The notes below the pieces were generated by a model. The model was not told the DNA's origin. It ran no database searches and worked only from the letters and a program-made list of their open reading frames with translations. From positions 1 to 10,086 of the forward strand of contig JAFGWL010000024.1 of NCBI GenBank assembly GCA_016937175.1: a stretch of 10,086 nt of DNA, written 5' to 3'. The stretch's first letter is position 1. Each line of letters starts with the position of its first letter. Positions 2,396-9,926 of this stretch are shown one piece after another. This DNA comes from Candidatus Mcinerneyibacteriota bacterium (GTDB lineage Bacteria > Macinerneyibacteriota > Macinerneyibacteria > Macinerneyibacteriales > DSCS01). Both the position numbers and the translations under genes were made by a program.

Positions 2396-2815
2396 TTAAT
2401 AGGCCAGGGCATAGGCCTGTTCTTCCAGCTTGTCCTTTTCGATCTGAAGCTGCAGGGGTTTCCCAGATTTCAGCAGAATGGTTCTGTCCACCGCCTTTTT
2501 CCCCATATTTTCGTCCCGGATCTCAGACTGTGATGAAATATCCTCCACCTTCTGGTAGAGATCCGCTACACCGCTTTCATCCAGGCCCATGGGGGCTGTA
2601 AACGCCTTGACCGTGACCGGCTGTTCGGGAACGGGGCCCGGCATGGCGACAGTCAGCAGGAGAAGAAGAACGGCCGCGGCGGCAAAGGAACTTCCGGCCA
2701 CGTAACGGATCCGTCTTTTCCTGGCCAGAGCCTTCTCTTCAAGCAGAAGAGCCTGGAGAAGGTTCTCTTTAAAAATAGGTGGCGGTGTGATAAAATCTTT
2801 CATTCTCTTCTTCAT
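2396..2815 (-). CDS. Single-pass membrane protein, candidate anti-sigma factor
   Basis: This 139-aa protein has a basic cytoplasmic N-terminus (1-37, with RKRRIR just before the membrane), one hydrophobic segment at about 38-58 (AAAAVLLLLLTVA), and an external domain of about 80 residues. The start ATG overlaps the sigma-factor stop in an ATGA, with a strong GAGGAGG site about 5 nt upstream, so the two are translationally coupled. That placement and topology fit an anti-sigma factor holding the ECF sigma at the membrane. However, there is no HxxxCxxC zinc motif, no cysteine or histidine at all, and the cytoplasmic part is short. I therefore infer the role from context; it could instead be an unrelated envelope protein. 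The external segment 70-139 is rich in charged residues and matches nothing I know. Confidence 0.7.
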   Translation of the reverse strand: MKKRMKDFITPPPIFKENLLQALLLEEKALARKRRIRYVAGSSFAAAAVLLLLLTVAMPGPVPEQPVTVKAFTAPMGLDESGVADLYQKVEDISSQSEIRDENMGKKAVDRTILLKSGKPLQLQIEKDKLEEQAYALAY

Positions 2816-3336
2816 CTTTCCTCCTCAAATATGACATCTTTACGAATTTTTTTCAATGCCCGGTGCACTTTGGAGCGCAAGGTCGAAGCATTTTCCTTCT
2901 TGATCTCCGCGAGCTCCCGATAGGTCAAATCGTCAAAGTAGATCCCGATCAGCAGATCTCTCTCATCGTCATCCAGCTTGTCGTTCATCACAGCCATGAC
3001 TTTATTCAGAGTATCCTCTGCTTCAAGGGCCTCCTGCAATTCGTGGGCTTCCTGGAGGACTTCATCGGACTTCAGCAGAAAGTCGTGCTTTTCAACCAGG
3101 GAGAGAGGCTTCTTCTGCCGGTACCAATTGATGATCTCATTATTGGCGATGGTGAAGATCCACGTCCCCAGGGCCGCTTTGTCCCGGTTATACGTATGCA
3201 GGTTTTTCAACACTTTCATAAAAACACCTGCCGTAATGTCCTCTGCCCGTTCAACATTCATTACACGCCTTAACACGTAAGAATATACCCTCTCAAAGTA
3301 GTATTTATAAATCTCTTCAATGTTAAGCGCCTGCAC
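2812..3336 (-). CDS. ECF-family RNA polymerase sigma factor
   Basis: This 174-aa protein has the two-domain ECF layout. Region 2 lies at about residues 8-75: YYFERVYSYVLRRV, then ERAEDITAGVFMKVLKNL, then the region 2.4-like GTWIFTIANNEIINWYRQKK, which reads the -10 element. Region 4 lies at about 118-167: DDDERDLLIGIYFDDLTYRE followed by the helix-turn-helix STLRSKVHRALKKIRK, which reads the -35. No region 3 or C-terminal extension is present. The start is GTG at 3334-3336, only 6 nt after the radical SAM stop. I see no good ribosome site, so translation probably depends on coupling, and expression may be low. It is followed by the membrane protein with an ATGA overlap. It probably directs an envelope-related regulon; the target promoters are not evident in the window. 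Confidence 0.93.
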   Translation of the reverse strand: MQALNIEEIYKYYFERVYSYVLRRVMNVERAEDITAGVFMKVLKNLHTYNRDKAALGTWIFTIANNEIINWYRQKKPLSLVEKHDFLLKSDEVLQEAHELQEALEAEDTLNKVMAVMNDKLDDDERDLLIGIYFDDLTYRELAEIKKENASTLRSKVHRALKKIRKDVIFEEER

Positions 3337-4383: not shown

Positions 4384-4935
4384 TTAATTATTTACTACAG
4401 ATTTTATATAATCGCGCCATAAAAGAGTATAATCAATACTATAAAAGGGCTGATCAGGAAAGTCCACTGATAAGACCTGCCGACTGTGTCGGTCATAAAC
4501 AACAAGCGCCTGAGAGAATTGATATCCCTTCCATTTGAGAATATTGGGTTCATATGCAACTATATTACTATTCGCTGAAGTCTTTTCACCGCATTGGATC
4601 TCAAAATAATCAATATAATCTCCTCTGCGGTTTATCTCCTGAGCAAACTCTGTGATACTTTCCCTGCATGCCGGACAAGTCAAGCCAAAAGTTATATAGA
4701 TAAAAACATAACGAGGCTTTCCCGGCCCGGCTTTCAAAAAGAGATCTAGTTCTTCTATATCCCATTCCTGTTTATGGAAGATGTCGCTAAGCTTAACAGA
4801 AAGCTCCTGCATAGCCATCTCTTTATGTACCAACTTTTCCACGATACTCAATTGATTCGCAAAGACAAATGCAGCCAATGCTGTCAAAACAAAAAGAACA
4901 GAGAAAAGAATGGGGACTATTTTTTTAAACATCAT
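4384..4935 (-). CDS. Membrane-anchored or secreted thioredoxin-like protein with CPAC
   Basis: This 183-aa protein has an N-terminal hydrophobic segment at about residues 5-26 (ending VFAN), which may be an uncleaved anchor or a signal peptide. A thioredoxin-like region follows: beta strand RYVFIYITFG leading into Cys87-Pro-Ala-Cys90 and the helix RESITEF. This matches the TlpA/redoxin group of extracytoplasmic disulfide enzymes. Cys115 is a third cysteine. The cis-proline that normally faces the active site is not evident: the expected place reads FSQALVVYD. The family assignment is good, but the chemistry may be atypical. Its start (ATGATG at 4930-4935) overlaps the end of the propeller lipoprotein gene by up to 11 nt and lacks a clear ribosome site, so it is probably translationally coupled. 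A role in making or reducing disulfides in the neighbouring cysteine-containing peptides is plausible but inferred. Confidence 0.8.
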   Translation of the reverse strand: MMFKKIVPILFSVLFVLTALAAFVFANQLSIVEKLVHKEMAMQELSVKLSDIFHKQEWDIEELDLFLKAGPGKPRYVFIYITFGLTCPACRESITEFAQEINRRGDYIDYFEIQCGEKTSANSNIVAYEPNILKWKGYQFSQALVVYDRHSRQVLSVDFPDQPFYSIDYTLLWRDYIKSVVNN

Positions 4936-5965
4936 ACTCGAAGATCCGAAGAATCAGCTTATCCTCTTTGCCCCTATCCACGTAGATCAACTCTCCCCGT
5001 GGAATCGTCGTCCTCAAGCTTGTCTTAAGCCAGGGAAACCGGTCTGTGTCCAGCCTATCGTCGAGTTTCTTAAGAATTCTCCCATTCCCATCAACAATTA
5101 TTTTTCCTTGTCCAAAGACATCCATGAAAAAGGTCTCATTTTCACGGTCGGGGATCATATTCAAAATAAGATCTTCAAAGGGAAGATCGATTCTCCCGAT
5201 CAGGTTCCCGTCACAATCACTGACCAGGATCTTTCCGCCTCCTTCGACCTTCCAGCTGTCTCGCTTGATCTGTTTCATGCTTTTATGGTAAAGCTCCCCG
5301 CTCATAAAGATCTTGTCTCCGCTGATGACGAAAACTTCAAACATGGCAAAGGAATTGTGTTTTCGCGGAAGACACTTTTTGATAGGATGGAGGGCTTTAT
5401 CCAAAATGATAATTCGATAAGTGTCTATTGTTCCACCGCTTTGATTAAAAAGGTAGATCCGTCCTTCATTTTTCCACGCATAATGGATAGTGCTTGAAGA
5501 CCAGACTGCTGTATCAATCGTGTCTTCAAAGGAAAATCCGTCAGGACTCAAGTAGAAAAGAGAAGCTCTTGAAAGTACCATATCAAAAAGAAGAGCTGTG
5601 GAATCATCGATAAATACAGCAGAATTGGCACTGAGTGCTTCTCCCGGGCCTTTGCCGTAGGGAGCCAGCTCTCCCAGGAAACGCCCACTCTCTCGATGCC
5701 AGGCGTAAGCACGCATATTGCTTGTTGCGATGATCCCTATGATATATTTTTCCCCTATTATAAAGTCTCGAAAAGGCCAAAGCCCATAGTTTAGATCCAG
5801 CTCTATGGTCTCTGTTAACTTCAAGAGATCAAAAAAGGAGTCAGCAGATTGTATCCGTTCCCTTTTTTCCTGAGATAACGGCCGAGATTCATAATCAGGG
5901 ATCATTTTAGAACAACCTGATAAGATAATAATGAAAAACAAAAATGTTAACTTTAATTTTAGCAT
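4925..5965 (-). CDS. Six-bladed beta-propeller lipoprotein, copy A
   Basis: Read from ATG at 5963-5965 this is 346 aa, the same length as copy B, and it begins with a clean lipoprotein signal (MLKLKLTFLFFIIILSGC; lipid-attachment Cys18). A GTG nine codons upstream is in frame but would overlap the peptide gene. The mature part has repeated beta-strand units such as GRFLGELAPYGKGPGEA, STALLFDM, IYLFNQSGGTIDTYRIIILD, GKILVSDCDGNLIGRIDLP and the closing LILRIFEYDV. Together these resemble the 6-bladed beta-propeller (NHL/TolB-like) lipoproteins common in Bacteroidota, which are thought to bind ligands or partners at the envelope. I see no enzymatic residues. The gene follows peptide A after an 8-nt gap and overlaps the redoxin start. 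No strong ribosome site is visible, so coupling to peptide A is likely. Confidence 0.82.
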   Translation of the reverse strand: MLKLKLTFLFFIIILSGCSKMIPDYESRPLSQEKRERIQSADSFFDLLKLTETIELDLNYGLWPFRDFIIGEKYIIGIIATSNMRAYAWHRESGRFLGELAPYGKGPGEALSANSAVFIDDSTALLFDMVLSRASLFYLSPDGFSFEDTIDTAVWSSSTIHYAWKNEGRIYLFNQSGGTIDTYRIIILDKALHPIKKCLPRKHNSFAMFEVFVISGDKIFMSGELYHKSMKQIKRDSWKVEGGGKILVSDCDGNLIGRIDLPFEDLILNMIPDRENETFFMDVFGQGKIIVDGNGRILKKLDDRLDTDRFPWLKTSLRTTIPRGELIYVDRGKEDKLILRIFEYDV

Positions 5966-5973
5966 AATAGCAT

Positions 5974-6276
5974 TTAGTTCATTCGAATGCACTTGGGCTC
6001 AACAGAACATTCAGACATCCCTTCATCCACTGCATAGCAAACTTGCATTTCCCCTTCCCACGACTCATAGCTCCCATATACTTCTTGAAATGAACAAGGC
6101 ATCCATCCTAACATATATTCCTTATCGAACATGTCTTCAACGATATCAATTGTCCCCCCAATAAAAACAGCTTTCAAAACTTCCTTACAAAACATCCACA
6201 CCAAAGGAACAGGGCTTGATAAAGAAACTCCCGTCAGCATACAGACCAATAAAACAATCGAAACAACCTTTTTCAT
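5974..6276 (-). CDS. Small secreted cysteine-containing protein, copy A
   Basis: This 100-aa protein starts at ATG 6274-6276, preceded by AAGGAGGT (6281-6288). The open frame continues upstream through the promoter, but only this start has a ribosome site and matches copy B. Residues 1-20 are a signal peptide (MKKVVSIVLLVCMLTG core). The mature protein begins SSPVPLVWMF and contains GGTIDIVEDMFDKEY, then a variable stretch (55-80), then the tail EGMSECSV with Cys90 and Cys96. Cysteines at 61, 80, 90 and 96 line up with those of copy B and could form two disulfides; Cys30 is unique to this copy. No family is recognised. It might be an exported signal, a toxin-like peptide or the ligand of the adjacent propeller lipoprotein; none of these is shown. 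Confidence 0.75.
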   Translation of the reverse strand: MKKVVSIVLLVCMLTGVSLSSPVPLVWMFCKEVLKAVFIGGTIDIVEDMFDKEYMLGWMPCSFQEVYGSYESWEGEMQVCYAVDEGMSECSVEPKCIRMN

Positions 6277-6304
6277 ATCGACCTCCTTCACAAGAATTTC
6301 AATC

Positions 6305-6329
6305 ATTATATATATATATATAATGTCAA
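6305..6329 (-). promoter_or_regulatory. Promoter of cassette A with TA-repeat spacer
   Basis: A perfect TTGACA (6324-6329) lies 9 nt after the stop codon of propeller copy B. TATAAT (6305-6310) lies only 13 nt from it, the gap being filled by alternating TA. Thirteen is too short for good sigma-70 promoters; AATGAT (6302-6307), with a 16-nt spacer, is an alternative -10. The TATAAT is 28 nt from the peptide start, about the same as the -10 of cassette B (26 nt), which supports it as the ancestral -10 box. Confidence 0.5.
6307..6322. repeat. (TA)8 dinucleotide run in the cassette A promoter
   Basis: Eight uninterrupted TA units lie between and partly within the -35 and -10 boxes. A change of two units would set the spacer at 17 nt, so replication slippage here could alter promoter strength. 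Confidence 0.7.
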
Positions 6330-6337
6330 TAACTTTT

Positions 6338-7378
6338 TTAAATATCATACTCAAAAATCCGAAGGATCAGCTTTCCTTCTTTGCCCCTGTCCACGTAGAT
6401 CTTCTTCCCCCGTCTAACACTTGTCTGCAGACTTGTTTTTAGCCAGGGGTATTTTTCTGAAGGCCATCCTTCATCAAACATTTTAAGGATCTCCCCAGCA
6501 GTATCCATTATATATGCATTTTTCCCGAGTTGCTGAATATAAAAGGTTTCGTTTTTTGAATCAGGGATTATATCCACGAGAAGCTCTTCAAATGGAAGTT
6601 CTATTCTTCCGACAAGATCACCCTCTAAATCACTAACTAACAATTTCCCTCTGCCCTCAACCTGCCAAAGTTCTTCTTTAATGTCTTTAACATTTTTATG
6701 ATATAGCTCGTCGGTCATAAAAATCCTGTCTCCACTGATGACGTAAGATTCAAACATGGCAAAAGAATTGTGTTTCCGTGGAAGACACTTTTTGATAGGA
6801 TCAAGGGCTTTATCCAAAATGATAATGCGATAAGTATCTATTGTTCCACCGCTTTGATTAAAAAGGTAGATCCATCCTTCATTTTTCCATGCATAATGAA
6901 TGGTACCTGAAGACCAGATTGCTGTATCGATCACATCGTCGAAAAAAAAACCATCAGGAGATAAACGGAAAATTGTCGCTCTTGAAAGCCCCATGTCAAA
7001 AAGAAGAGCTGTGGAATCATCAATAAACACAGCTGAACTAGTGTTAATTGCTTCTCCCGGGCCTTTACCATAGGGCGTCATTTCTCCCAGGAAACGCCCA
7101 CTTGACCGGTGCCATGCGTAAGCCCGCATATTGCCTGCCCGGATAATACCTATAATATATTTATCTCCGACAATGATATCGTAAAAAGGCCACAGCTTGT
7201 AATCAAGATTCAATTCGATATACTCCGATAAAACGAATAGATCTGATGAAAATTCTGCAGACTCTATCTTTTCTCTCTTATCCTGTGGGACTTGAGTTGC
7301 GTTATAAAGAGAAATTTCCCCCGAACATCCTGATAATATGAACACTATGAAAATATATATTTTTAACCGTGCAATCAT
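6338..7378 (-). CDS. Six-bladed beta-propeller lipoprotein, copy B
   Basis: This 346-aa paralogue of copy A starts at ATG 7376-7378, with AAGGGG 6 nt upstream. A TTG eleven codons earlier is in frame but lacks a ribosome site and would overlap the peptide gene. The signal peptide ends FILSGC, giving a lipid-modified Cys. Similarity to copy A runs the whole length. It is almost complete in the middle (about residues 110-215, including IDDSTALLFDM, TIHYAWKNEG, YLFNQSGGTIDTYRIIIL and PRKHNSFAMFE) and weaker in the N-terminal 50 residues and the last blades (260-315). As with copy A, the fold suggests an envelope binding protein rather than an enzyme. The gene follows peptide B after 11 nt. Unlike copy A it is not followed by a redoxin gene but by the promoter of cassette A. 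Confidence 0.82.
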   Translation of the reverse strand: MIARLKIYIFIVFILSGCSGEISLYNATQVPQDKREKIESAEFSSDLFVLSEYIELNLDYKLWPFYDIIVGDKYIIGIIRAGNMRAYAWHRSSGRFLGEMTPYGKGPGEAINTSSAVFIDDSTALLFDMGLSRATIFRLSPDGFFFDDVIDTAIWSSGTIHYAWKNEGWIYLFNQSGGTIDTYRIIILDKALDPIKKCLPRKHNSFAMFESYVISGDRIFMTDELYHKNVKDIKEELWQVEGRGKLLVSDLEGDLVGRIELPFEELLVDIIPDSKNETFYIQQLGKNAYIMDTAGEILKMFDEGWPSEKYPWLKTSLQTSVRRGKKIYVDRGKEGKLILRIFEYDI

Positions 7379-7389
7379 TTGATGCCCCT

Positions 7390-7695
7390 TTAACTCCCTG
7401 TTGGTATACAATCGCCTAGTACACTACATTCTGACATCCCTTTCTCTTCAACCTCCATGCACCTTGGTGCTATCCCTCTAACAGTTGTACCACTAGGGTA
7501 TAATGTTACCTCACAAGGATCAAAAACTATCGTGTATTCCTTATCAAACATATCTCCGATAATATCAACAGTTCCTCCGACAAATACGGTTTTCAGAACT
7601 TCTTTGAGAAACATCCACAACAAAGGAACAGGGTTTGAAAAAGTAGCTCCCGTCAGCATACAGACCAATAAAACAATCGAAACAACCTTTTTCAT
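7390..7695 (-). CDS. Small secreted cysteine-containing protein, copy B
   Basis: This 101-aa paralogue of copy A starts at ATG 7693-7695, with AGGAGGT at 7700-7706 and the same TCGAT spacer before the ATG. Residues 1-16 are identical to copy A, and the mature N-terminus NPVPLLWMFLKEVLK through DMFDKEY (to residue 54) differs only by a few changes. Residues 55-80 are unrelated, then KGMSECSV with Cys90 and Cys96 returns. Cysteines 61, 79, 90 and 96 correspond to those of copy A with a one-residue shift at the second. The conserved-variable-conserved pattern is unusual for a housekeeping protein. The family and function are unknown. It is the first gene after a strong promoter, so it is probably the most highly expressed product of the island. 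Confidence 0.78.
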   Translation of the reverse strand: MKKVVSIVLLVCMLTGATFSNPVPLLWMFLKEVLKTVFVGGTVDIIGDMFDKEYTIVFDPCEVTLYPSGTTVRGIAPRCMEVEEKGMSECSVLGDCIPTGS

Positions 7696-7721
7696 ATCGA
7701 CCTCCTAATTAATACCACTAA

Positions 7722-7750
7722 TTTATATATATATAAATATTAATTGTCAA
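7722..7750 (-). promoter_or_regulatory. Strong promoter of cassette B
   Basis: A perfect TTGACA (7745-7750), a 17-nt A/T-only spacer and TATAAA (7722-7727) form a near-ideal sigma-70-type promoter. The peptide B start is 26 nt further on, after a strong AGGAGGT. The spacer and -10 include a TA run. The stretch 7751-7861 between this promoter and the ATP-grasp stop codon holds no gene that I can support. Confidence 0.72.
7724..7735. repeat. (TA)6 dinucleotide run in the cassette B promoter
   Basis: Six uninterrupted TA units overlap the -10 box and the spacer of the cassette B promoter. This is the counterpart of the eight-unit run in cassette A. Confidence 0.65.
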
Positions 7751-7778
7751 ATAAATAATTAACAAATTTTGAATTCCC

Positions 7779-7861: not shown

Positions 7862-8914
7862 TTAAACATCCCTGATAATCCCGTAAGCCTGGTAAAACCT
7901 CCTGATCCGGGTGTCAAGGAGAAAGGGCTTGTGCACCTGGAGGAGGTCCACGCCCGTGTAGCTGTTGCCTTCGATAACGCTGAAGCCCTCTTCTCCCAGG
8001 ACGATGTCCCAGCCCACATAGGGCAGGTAGGGATGAGCTTCCGCTGTTTTGAAGATGATGGAGACCATGGCCTCCCAGTCCGGGATCTTCCGACCGGTAA
8101 AGCGTTCTTTTGTGTCCGGATGGTGCTGCATCCACGTGAGCCCTTTCCCCCTGGGATGGACCACCCCTTCACCCAACTCTCCCGTCTCGGGATCCACATG
8201 GACACTGAGTCCGCCAAGCTCACAGTTATCCGTGGGCTCTGAAGATTTCGTCCCGATTCGCTGAACCGTCGAGGGGATGAAGGCTTTCCCTGTGTCGGGA
8301 TCCAGCATGGTCACGATCCTCAATGTGTTGATCGTACGGGGATAAAGAGACGATGCAAAAGCACCCTGGGCGATGAAGTCTGTGGCCAGGTAAGGGGACG
8401 TCTCATGGAGGATTTTCCCCAGGAGAGGGCGGGGATCCCTCTTCTCTCCGTTGACAGTGAACGTGTCCCCCTCGCGTTTTAAAAAAATGATCCCGTGCCC
8501 GCCTCCGCCTCTCAGGGGTTTCAGCACGAGTCCGTTGACCTCTTTCACATAATCCAGAAGAGCAGAGAGGGAATCCACCTGCCGGTGGCTCTCCAGTGGG
8601 AATGTGTGCCCCCTGTCCAAGAGGCAGAGGTTCTGCGGAACGGGGAAACAGCGTCCGAAGACCTTCTCAAAGACGATCTTGTCATCAAGGAAGAGCGCAA
8701 AAGAGCCGTTGATCTTCCTTGTACTGAGCCGCTGCCAGTCGGTAAGAAAAGCATCATATCCGTATTTTTTAAAATCATAGATCACATGGGCTTCGCTGAA
8801 AAACCCTCTGCGGAGAAGAGCCATCCGTTTCAATAAAGGGACATGCTCTTTGAACTGCAGCTCCTTTTTAATAAAGGCACGCAAACGCCTTAAGTTCTGA
8901 AAGCGCTTATCCAT
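7862..8914 (-). CDS. ATP-grasp ligase of the sugar-transfer-associated type
   Basis: This 350-aa protein has an N-terminal helical part (1-60) and then an ATP-grasp fold. Lys132 and the glycine-rich loop (GLVLKPLRGGGGHGI, 128-142) hold ATP phosphates. RTINTLRIVT (193-202) and CELGGLSVHVD (231-241) are hallmarks of the family Pfam calls sugar-transfer-associated ATP-grasp (PF14397). GWDIVL (Asp303) and VIEGNSYTG (Glu315, Asn317) supply the Mg ligands. Members join a carboxylate to an amine or similar nucleophile and often sit in surface-polysaccharide or cell-wall loci; the substrate here is unknown. The ATG has GGAGGA 5 nt upstream and overlaps the stop codon of the preceding ATP-grasp gene by 8 nt, so the two are co-translated. 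Confidence 0.87.
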   Translation of the reverse strand: MDKRFQNLRRLRAFIKKELQFKEHVPLLKRMALLRRGFFSEAHVIYDFKKYGYDAFLTDWQRLSTRKINGSFALFLDDKIVFEKVFGRCFPVPQNLCLLDRGHTFPLESHRQVDSLSALLDYVKEVNGLVLKPLRGGGGHGIIFLKREGDTFTVNGEKRDPRPLLGKILHETSPYLATDFIAQGAFASSLYPRTINTLRIVTMLDPDTGKAFIPSTVQRIGTKSSEPTDNCELGGLSVHVDPETGELGEGVVHPRGKGLTWMQHHPDTKERFTGRKIPDWEAMVSIIFKTAEAHPYLPYVGWDIVLGEEGFSVIEGNSYTGVDLLQVHKPFLLDTRIRRFYQAYGIIRDV

Positions 8915-9926
8915 TCTCTTCCTCCAACAGGTTCAAGACATCTTTCACCCGTAACTCACAGCTGTCAAAGCGGTTGAACTCTCCGGGCTCAAAGACCCAA
9001 CTTGTGTTATTATACAGAAAGCGCCCAGGGATCCCATCCACCTTCGTCTGATACGGGTTGATCTTCGAGGCAAAGACAGTATGGAGTTCATTGACCAGGA
9101 ATTCCCCCTCTTCAGTCTCGAAGAAATCTACGTTCATGGAGCGGAAATTTCCCGCATCACACACTCTTTTGAGAAAATCCAGGGGAGCATCTCCCGGGTG
9201 GCCGTAAGCGGCTTTCCCCGACCCGCTGCGAAAGCCCTTTTTATCAGGAAGTTTTTCATGGATGAAGTAGGACTCTCCGATCTTGACTCCCCGCCACTCA
9301 TGCCTTACCCGGACCGCTTCCTGGAAATAGACATTGTTATACTGAATATCGTCAAAGAGGGGATAGGGGATCCCCAGAGGGCCCCGGGCCCATTTGACAA
9401 AGCCTTTGAACCCCAGCCCTGTGCGGGTGAAGAGACGGTCTACAAGACGTCCGGCAGCTCTTCTGTCTTTGATCATACGCACGCCGCCGCCGCCACTTCC
9501 AAGGTTAGCCTTAAAAAAGAGAGGGAACCGTGGGCCATCATTAATGAAAGCCAGAGCTTCTTCCCTGTCATAAAAGACATGTGTGGGGGGATGGGGGATG
9601 TGATGGATCCTCAGCCAATAGAGAAGGACCCGCTTATTCTCATAGAGCATGATCTCCCGGTAGGAGGGGTAGACCATGCGTTTCATCTCCCGTTCGAGGA
9701 AATAGATGCGCTCATCGAACATCTGCTTGTAGACCATCCGTCGGGCTGTGGGACGGCAGAGAAAAGCACTGCACGGACACTCTTCAAGGCGCCGGATCCA
9801 GCCATCAGAGATGATATCGATTATTTTGTAGGGAACATCAAGCGCTTCACAGGCATTGACATAGCTCTCATGAAGCCCATCGGGTTCTTTGAGGATTCCA
9901 AGCATGATTTTGCTATTTTTTCCCAT
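8907..9926 (-). CDS. ATP-grasp protein, RimK-like
   Basis: This 339-aa protein begins with a small alpha/beta N-terminal domain (MLGILKEPDG and the following roughly 75 residues). A linker follows with PSYREIMLYENKR, where the Y/F-x-x-K helix introduces the ATP-grasp fold (HIPHPPTHVFYDREEALAFI). ATP-binding Lys139 and a glycine-rich loop (FFKANLGSGGGGVRM, 137-151) are clear; YFQEAV and NVDFFETEEGEFLVNELHT give the adenine-facing strand and the Mg ligands. It differs from the following ATP-grasp gene in sequence and domain order, so the two are not a recent duplication. It probably ligates an amino acid or similar group to a cytoplasmic carboxylate; the substrate is unknown. The ATG has AGAGGAG about 5 nt upstream and overlaps the preceding gene by 14 nt. 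Confidence 0.85.
   Translation of the reverse strand: MGKNSKIMLGILKEPDGLHESYVNACEALDVPYKIIDIISDGWIRRLEECPCSAFLCRPTARRMVYKQMFDERIYFLEREMKRMVYPSYREIMLYENKRVLLYWLRIHHIPHPPTHVFYDREEALAFINDGPRFPLFFKANLGSGGGGVRMIKDRRAAGRLVDRLFTRTGLGFKGFVKWARGPLGIPYPLFDDIQYNNVYFQEAVRVRHEWRGVKIGESYFIHEKLPDKKGFRSGSGKAAYGHPGDAPLDFLKRVCDAGNFRSMNVDFFETEEGEFLVNELHTVFASKINPYQTKVDGIPGRFLYNNTSWVFEPGEFNRFDSCELRVKDVLNLLEEENG

Follow-up and report, generated by a model that had tools for sequence, protein, structure and literature searches.

The most familiar promoters with a simple-repeat spacer are those of host-adapted pathogens, for example Haemophilus and Neisseria. In the contingency promoters of Neisseria, a homopolymer located between the two boxes sets their spacing, and expression is graded. 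In 1993, van Ham et al. are said to have described a tract of (TA)9–11 in the promoter region of the Haemophilus influenzae genes hifA and hifB. A change in spacing has been proposed for this (TA)9–11 tract (PMC2651432); the first-pass annotation of the DNA studied here pointed to this parallel and cited it correctly. In H. influenzae, seven of the eight dinucleotide loci found at a five-unit threshold are unchanged in overall length between strains (PMC2651432).

We have analyzed a window of 10,086 bases, which is the complete contig C36 of a genome of 1.88 Mb (71 contigs, 98.7% complete). According to the ORF list of this window, every gene around the site lies on the minus strand. Two similar cassettes are found in tandem, B followed by A, each formed by a secreted peptide gene and a propeller lipoprotein gene. 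The phylum is represented by three genomes in the collection. The genus has just one further genome there, from GenBank (contig DSCS01000017.1, labelled Bacillota bacterium isolate SpSt-1200), which we call the sister species. The features considered are the following, in the direction of transcription:

7745–7750, minus strand: TTGACA, -35-like box of cassette B (sequence)
7724–7735, minus strand: (TA)6 in the spacer of B, second-longest TA tract of the genome
7722–7727, minus strand: TATAAA, -10-like box of B, 17 nt from TTGACA, 5/6 match
7390–7695, minus strand: secreted peptide gene of cassette B, orthologue of the C31 peptide of the sister species (75% amino acid identity)
6338–7378, minus strand: TolB-like propeller lipoprotein gene of cassette B
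6324–6329, minus strand: TTGACA, -35-like box of cassette A (sequence; TTATTGACAT is kept in the sister species)
6307–6322, minus strand: (TA)8 microsatellite filling the spacer of A, longest TA tract of the genome (TRF and sequence)
6305–6310, minus strand: TATAAT, -10-like box of A, 13 nt from TTGACA
6302–6307, minus strand: AATGAT, alternative -10-like box of A, 16 nt from TTGACA, 10/12 matches together with TTGACA
6282–6287, minus strand: AGGAGG, ribosome-binding site of peptide A (sequence)
5974–6276, minus strand: secreted peptide gene of cassette A, with a signal peptide and a Cys-containing C-terminus
4925–5965, minus strand: TolB-like 6-bladed propeller lipoprotein gene of cassette A (Pfam PF15869, E=2e-7)
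4384–4935, minus strand: membrane-anchored protein carrying a CPAC motif; only its position and this motif point to a thioredoxin-like protein

Both propellers match the Pfam family TolB_like, A above the curated cut-off and B below it. A lipobox, LSGCS, can be read in the sequence of propeller A. The two peptides are 60% identical, and signal sequences and cysteines are present in both. Neither of them has a family match, and the family search with the CPAC protein gave no significant match; when solved structures were searched by sequence with the propeller and the CPAC protein, none was similar. Judging from the signal peptide, the lipobox and the TolB_like match, the products may be secreted or exposed at the surface.

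The promoter of cassette A is TTATTGACAT(TA)8ATGATTGAAATTCTTGTGAAGGAGGTCGATATG. Reading along the minus strand, TTGACA comes first, then a single T, then (TA)8 and ATG. The first-pass annotation placed TTGACA and TATAAT 13 nt apart, with (TA)8 across the gap, which agrees with both TRF and the sequence (spacer 6311–6323), and its count that two additional TA units give a spacer of 17 nt is correct. The two final TA units and the AT behind them make up TATAAT, so it overlaps the repeat: In part, this box results automatically from a (TA)n tract with AT behind it. The other candidate, AATGAT, was missed in that annotation. The combination TTGACA-16-AATGAT is also picked up by a consensus promoter scan; AATGAT retains A2 and T6, and 16 nt is the spacing preferred by this genome. 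It may be the real -10 box when there are eight units. The promoter of cassette B is TTGACAATTAATATT(TA)6AATTAG. Its boxes are separated by 17 nt, with (TA)6 in the spacer, as the first-pass annotation stated; the second box is TATAAA rather than TATAAT.

The repeat might instead act on translation: An in-frame upstream start would be read through the tract, and slippage would shift the frame. In fact, the frame of cassette A has no stop between an upstream TTG and the peptide, the tract included (ORF 5974–6354). Nevertheless, the strong AGGAGG is found 5 nt before the ATG at 6276, on the 3' side of the tract, and a proper signal peptide starts there; in cassette B, a TAG at the ribosome-binding site interrupts this frame. 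Such a switch is extremely improbable, and we have dropped it because a strong ribosome-binding site lies beyond the tract.

The promoter of A shares several features with hif. In both cases the TA tract is located between the -35 box and the -10 box, the spacing shifts by 2 bp per unit, and the best predicted state is near 16–17 bp. The number of units is 9–11 in hif, as compared to eight in A, seven in the sister species and six in B. In hif, a divergent gene pair shares the tract, whereas A is one promoter for one cassette, with both neighbours on the minus strand. The products also differ, fimbriae in hif and a secreted peptide plus a propeller lipoprotein in A, and no gene homology is apparent. 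We consider that the promoter of A resembles hif in its predicted mode of working, as judged here from sequence; it is not a member of the hif system. Eight units are short for a dinucleotide contingency locus. Neisseria spacers differ in having single-base repeats; with the dinucleotide TA, only odd spacings (11, 13, 15, 17) can be reached in A. As would be expected of a phase-variable promoter with a repeat in its spacer, the repeat in A is uninterrupted and above chance expectation, and its length differs between relatives while its flanks are kept.

Chance does not account for the TA tract in the promoter of A. Throughout the genome, tracts of at least five TA units are found only in the promoters of cassettes A and B; as the cassettes are paralogous, the two tracts cannot be counted as independent. 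The expected number of (TA)8 tracts per genome is between 0.0003 (order-3 Markov) and 0.004 (order-2 Markov). An exact TTGACA/TATAAT pair with a spacing of 11–18 is seen once, with 0.02 expected in the shuffled window. The pattern TTGACA-N0-9-(TA)7AT is present in 2 of 386 bacterial genomes: this one and the sister species. A scan of viral contigs gave no match to this promoter.

To define normal spacing, we have counted perfect TTGACA/TATAAT pairs: This genome has 29 and the sister species 37, as compared to one and four with a reversed-pattern control. The spacer is 16 nt in 18 and 23 of these pairs, respectively, and 17 nt in five and five. The spacers of 13 nt (A) and 11 nt (sister species) are therefore outliers, while B conforms with 17 nt.

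A contig scan with a single propeller sequence gave no matches, a scan with a propeller alignment found the sister MAG only, and the cassette is absent from the third genome of the phylum. Gene order around the cassettes is the same in the sister species. Its promoter, TTATTGACAT(TA)7ATGATTGAAATTCTTATGAAGGAAGTCGGTATG, is located ahead of its first cassette, which is the orthologue of B by position and identity (75% for the peptide, 78% for the N-half of the propeller). An A-type promoter on a B-type gene points either to promoter exchange or to divergence of the B promoter in the present genome. The sister assembly breaks inside the propeller, so the promoter of any second cassette is missing there.

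Counting TA units in related genomes, as the first-pass annotation had proposed, gives seven units in the sister species against eight here, in the single species pair compared. As compared to A, the left flank is identical, the right flank is nearly so, and the tract has no internal substitution. A difference of one unit without substitution is the trace that would be expected of slippage. This difference could also correspond to slow drift between species: The comparison covers three promoters from two species. In the sister species the spacer between TTGACA and TATAAT is 11 nt, and AATGAT is found at 14 nt.

This difference in length also bears on the palindrome CAT(TA)nATG, which could be the binding site of an AT-recognising regulator or form an mRNA hairpin, rather than being a variable spacer. 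The palindrome, CATTATATATATATATATAATG, is perfect over 22 bp, and the RNA is able to form an AU hairpin. However, (TA)n is inherently self-complementary, so just three flanking pairs are informative; the RNA fold is no better than shuffles (z = -1.0), and a 2-bp change in length would be incompatible with a rigid dyad, yet both seven and eight units are found. We consider this explanation very unlikely.

We have scored all hexamer pairs for tracts of 4–12 TA units with a crude model, which gives equal weight to each matching base and includes the spacer frequencies of these genomes. In silico, maxima are found at eight (TTGACA-16-AATGAT), ten (TTGACA-17-TATAAT) and five units (TTGACA-16-TGAAAT); scores are poor at seven and nine. 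A switch based on these pairs would work as follows. Slipped-strand mispairing would shift the spacer of A in 2-nt steps, with TTGACA remaining fixed, and the TA count would decide which -10 hexamer sits at a usable distance. With the eight units found here, TATAAT would be too close at 13 nt and the weaker AATGAT would be well placed at 16 nt; low expression is predicted, as only AATGAT is well placed. Seven units (the sister species) or nine would leave no good box pair, and the promoter would be off. With ten units, TTGACA-17-TATAAT would be a perfect promoter with full expression. The model thus predicts an expression peak at ten TA units and a lesser peak at eight.

The promoter of A is a real and unusual feature. 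The phase-variable switch proposed in the first-pass annotation is plausible and partly supported: The anatomy of the promoter, a tract which is singular in the genome, the one-unit difference in the sister species and the abnormal spacers of 13 and 11 nt are consistent with it. We infer actual use of the boxes, frequent and reversible slippage, and a dependence of expression on the TA count. We assign a probability of about 45% to the proposal that the promoter of A has a slippable TA microsatellite as its spacer and that slippage changes the expression of cassette A.

An ordinary promoter, constitutive or regulated, should also be considered. It would combine TTGACA with AATGAT at 16 nt, or with some other -10 box further downstream, and the TA tract would be an easily melted, slowly drifting spacer. 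The conserved A2 and T6 of AATGAT at the favourite spacing of the genome agree with this explanation, as does a short tract whose length variation is known between species only. On the other hand, AATGAT lies at 14 nt in the sister species, where no good pair is left in spite of the conserved TTGACA and right flank, and a pure TA tract which is unique in the genome exceeds what is needed as a melting aid. We consider an ordinary promoter a somewhat unlikely explanation.

The location of the -35 box of A, 8 nt downstream of the stop codon of propeller B, suggests another explanation: Cassette A, and the CPAC protein, might be co-transcribed from the TTGACA-17-TATAAA promoter of B, with the A promoter being redundant, decayed or unimportant. 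All these genes are on the same strand, and no convincing terminator is found between B and A, where the single hit is weak and lies inside coding sequence. Such redundancy is at odds with the sister species, in which an almost unchanged A-type promoter precedes the first cassette and is not internal; the near-perfect conservation of its flanks makes decay of the A promoter unlikely. We consider a redundant internal promoter rather improbable. Nevertheless, given the 8-nt gap and the lack of a convincing terminator, transcripts from B may run into A and hide any switch.

A broader form of the variable-spacer proposal is that each cassette is tuned by its own TA spacer, A being low at eight units and B on at six, which would form a contingency system in an uncultured phylum. 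We regard this as unlikely. If the variable spacer of A is real, it would be a dinucleotide-spacer switch outside the known host-adapted pathogens, in a thinly sampled and uncultured phylum. It would also suggest that repeat-driven bet-hedging occurs in bacteria which are not known as host-adapted, and for other products.

Other peptide and propeller operons are found in these genomes. In contig C42 of this genome, three short MKK... secreted peptides are clustered ahead of a propeller gene, and two promoters, TTGACA-17-TATTCT and TTGACA-16-TATTCT, have near-identical leaders (1950–2222 and 1253–1523 of its stretch). Contig C25 of the sister species contains a peptide/propeller operon with the promoter TTGACATTCG(T)12ATTATCATAAGG (minus strand, about 2551–2640 of its stretch), in which T12 lies within the spacer, TATTAT is found at 15 nt and TATCAT at 18 nt. 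These operons are like A in having a perfect TTGACA, usually TTGACAT, a MKK... secreted peptide as first gene and propellers in the same clusters. The C42 promoters differ from A in their spacers, which are 16 and 17 nt long and have no TA repeats. C25 is a possible second repeat-tuned promoter; no counterpart of its T12 promoter was found in 40 contig starts searched in this genome.

In a census of homopolymers, runs of at least 11 T or A are absent from this genome, while the sister species has six, only one of which, that of C25, is located in a promoter spacer. Others are found in rnpA, upstream of a cobalamin gene and at low-complexity contig ends. Given these locations, simple repeats are not a general mark of promoters. 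One such end is in contig C48 of the sister species (1501–1577), near dnaA, with T19 and T28 runs which are probably an assembly artefact. The other (TA)6 of the sister species, in contig C9, is intergenic and has no TTGACA. A (TA)7 run is found at a contig end of a more distant relative (C109, 1480–1515), in a propeller-like coding frame (YIYIY).

In the sister assembly, two propeller genes are broken at the same point (C31, C45, C59), which suggests that there is more than one propeller copy with an identical middle segment. In the present genome, cassettes A (4925–6345) and B (6338–7760) form a mosaic: They are almost the same in the leader and signal peptide, a mid-propeller segment is 90–93% identical, and the mature peptide is strongly diverged, that of B having 92–97% DNA identity to the sister species. 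This pattern points to gene conversion combined with diversification.

Two ATP-grasp genes (ATPgrasp_ST and RimK-like, 7862–9926 of the window) are located directly upstream of the peptide cassettes; the position of the ATPgrasp_ST gene is kept in the sister species. The window also contains a gene for a sigma-70-family factor (2812–3336), followed by a small membrane protein (the two genes spanning 2396–3336) which is possibly an anti-sigma factor.
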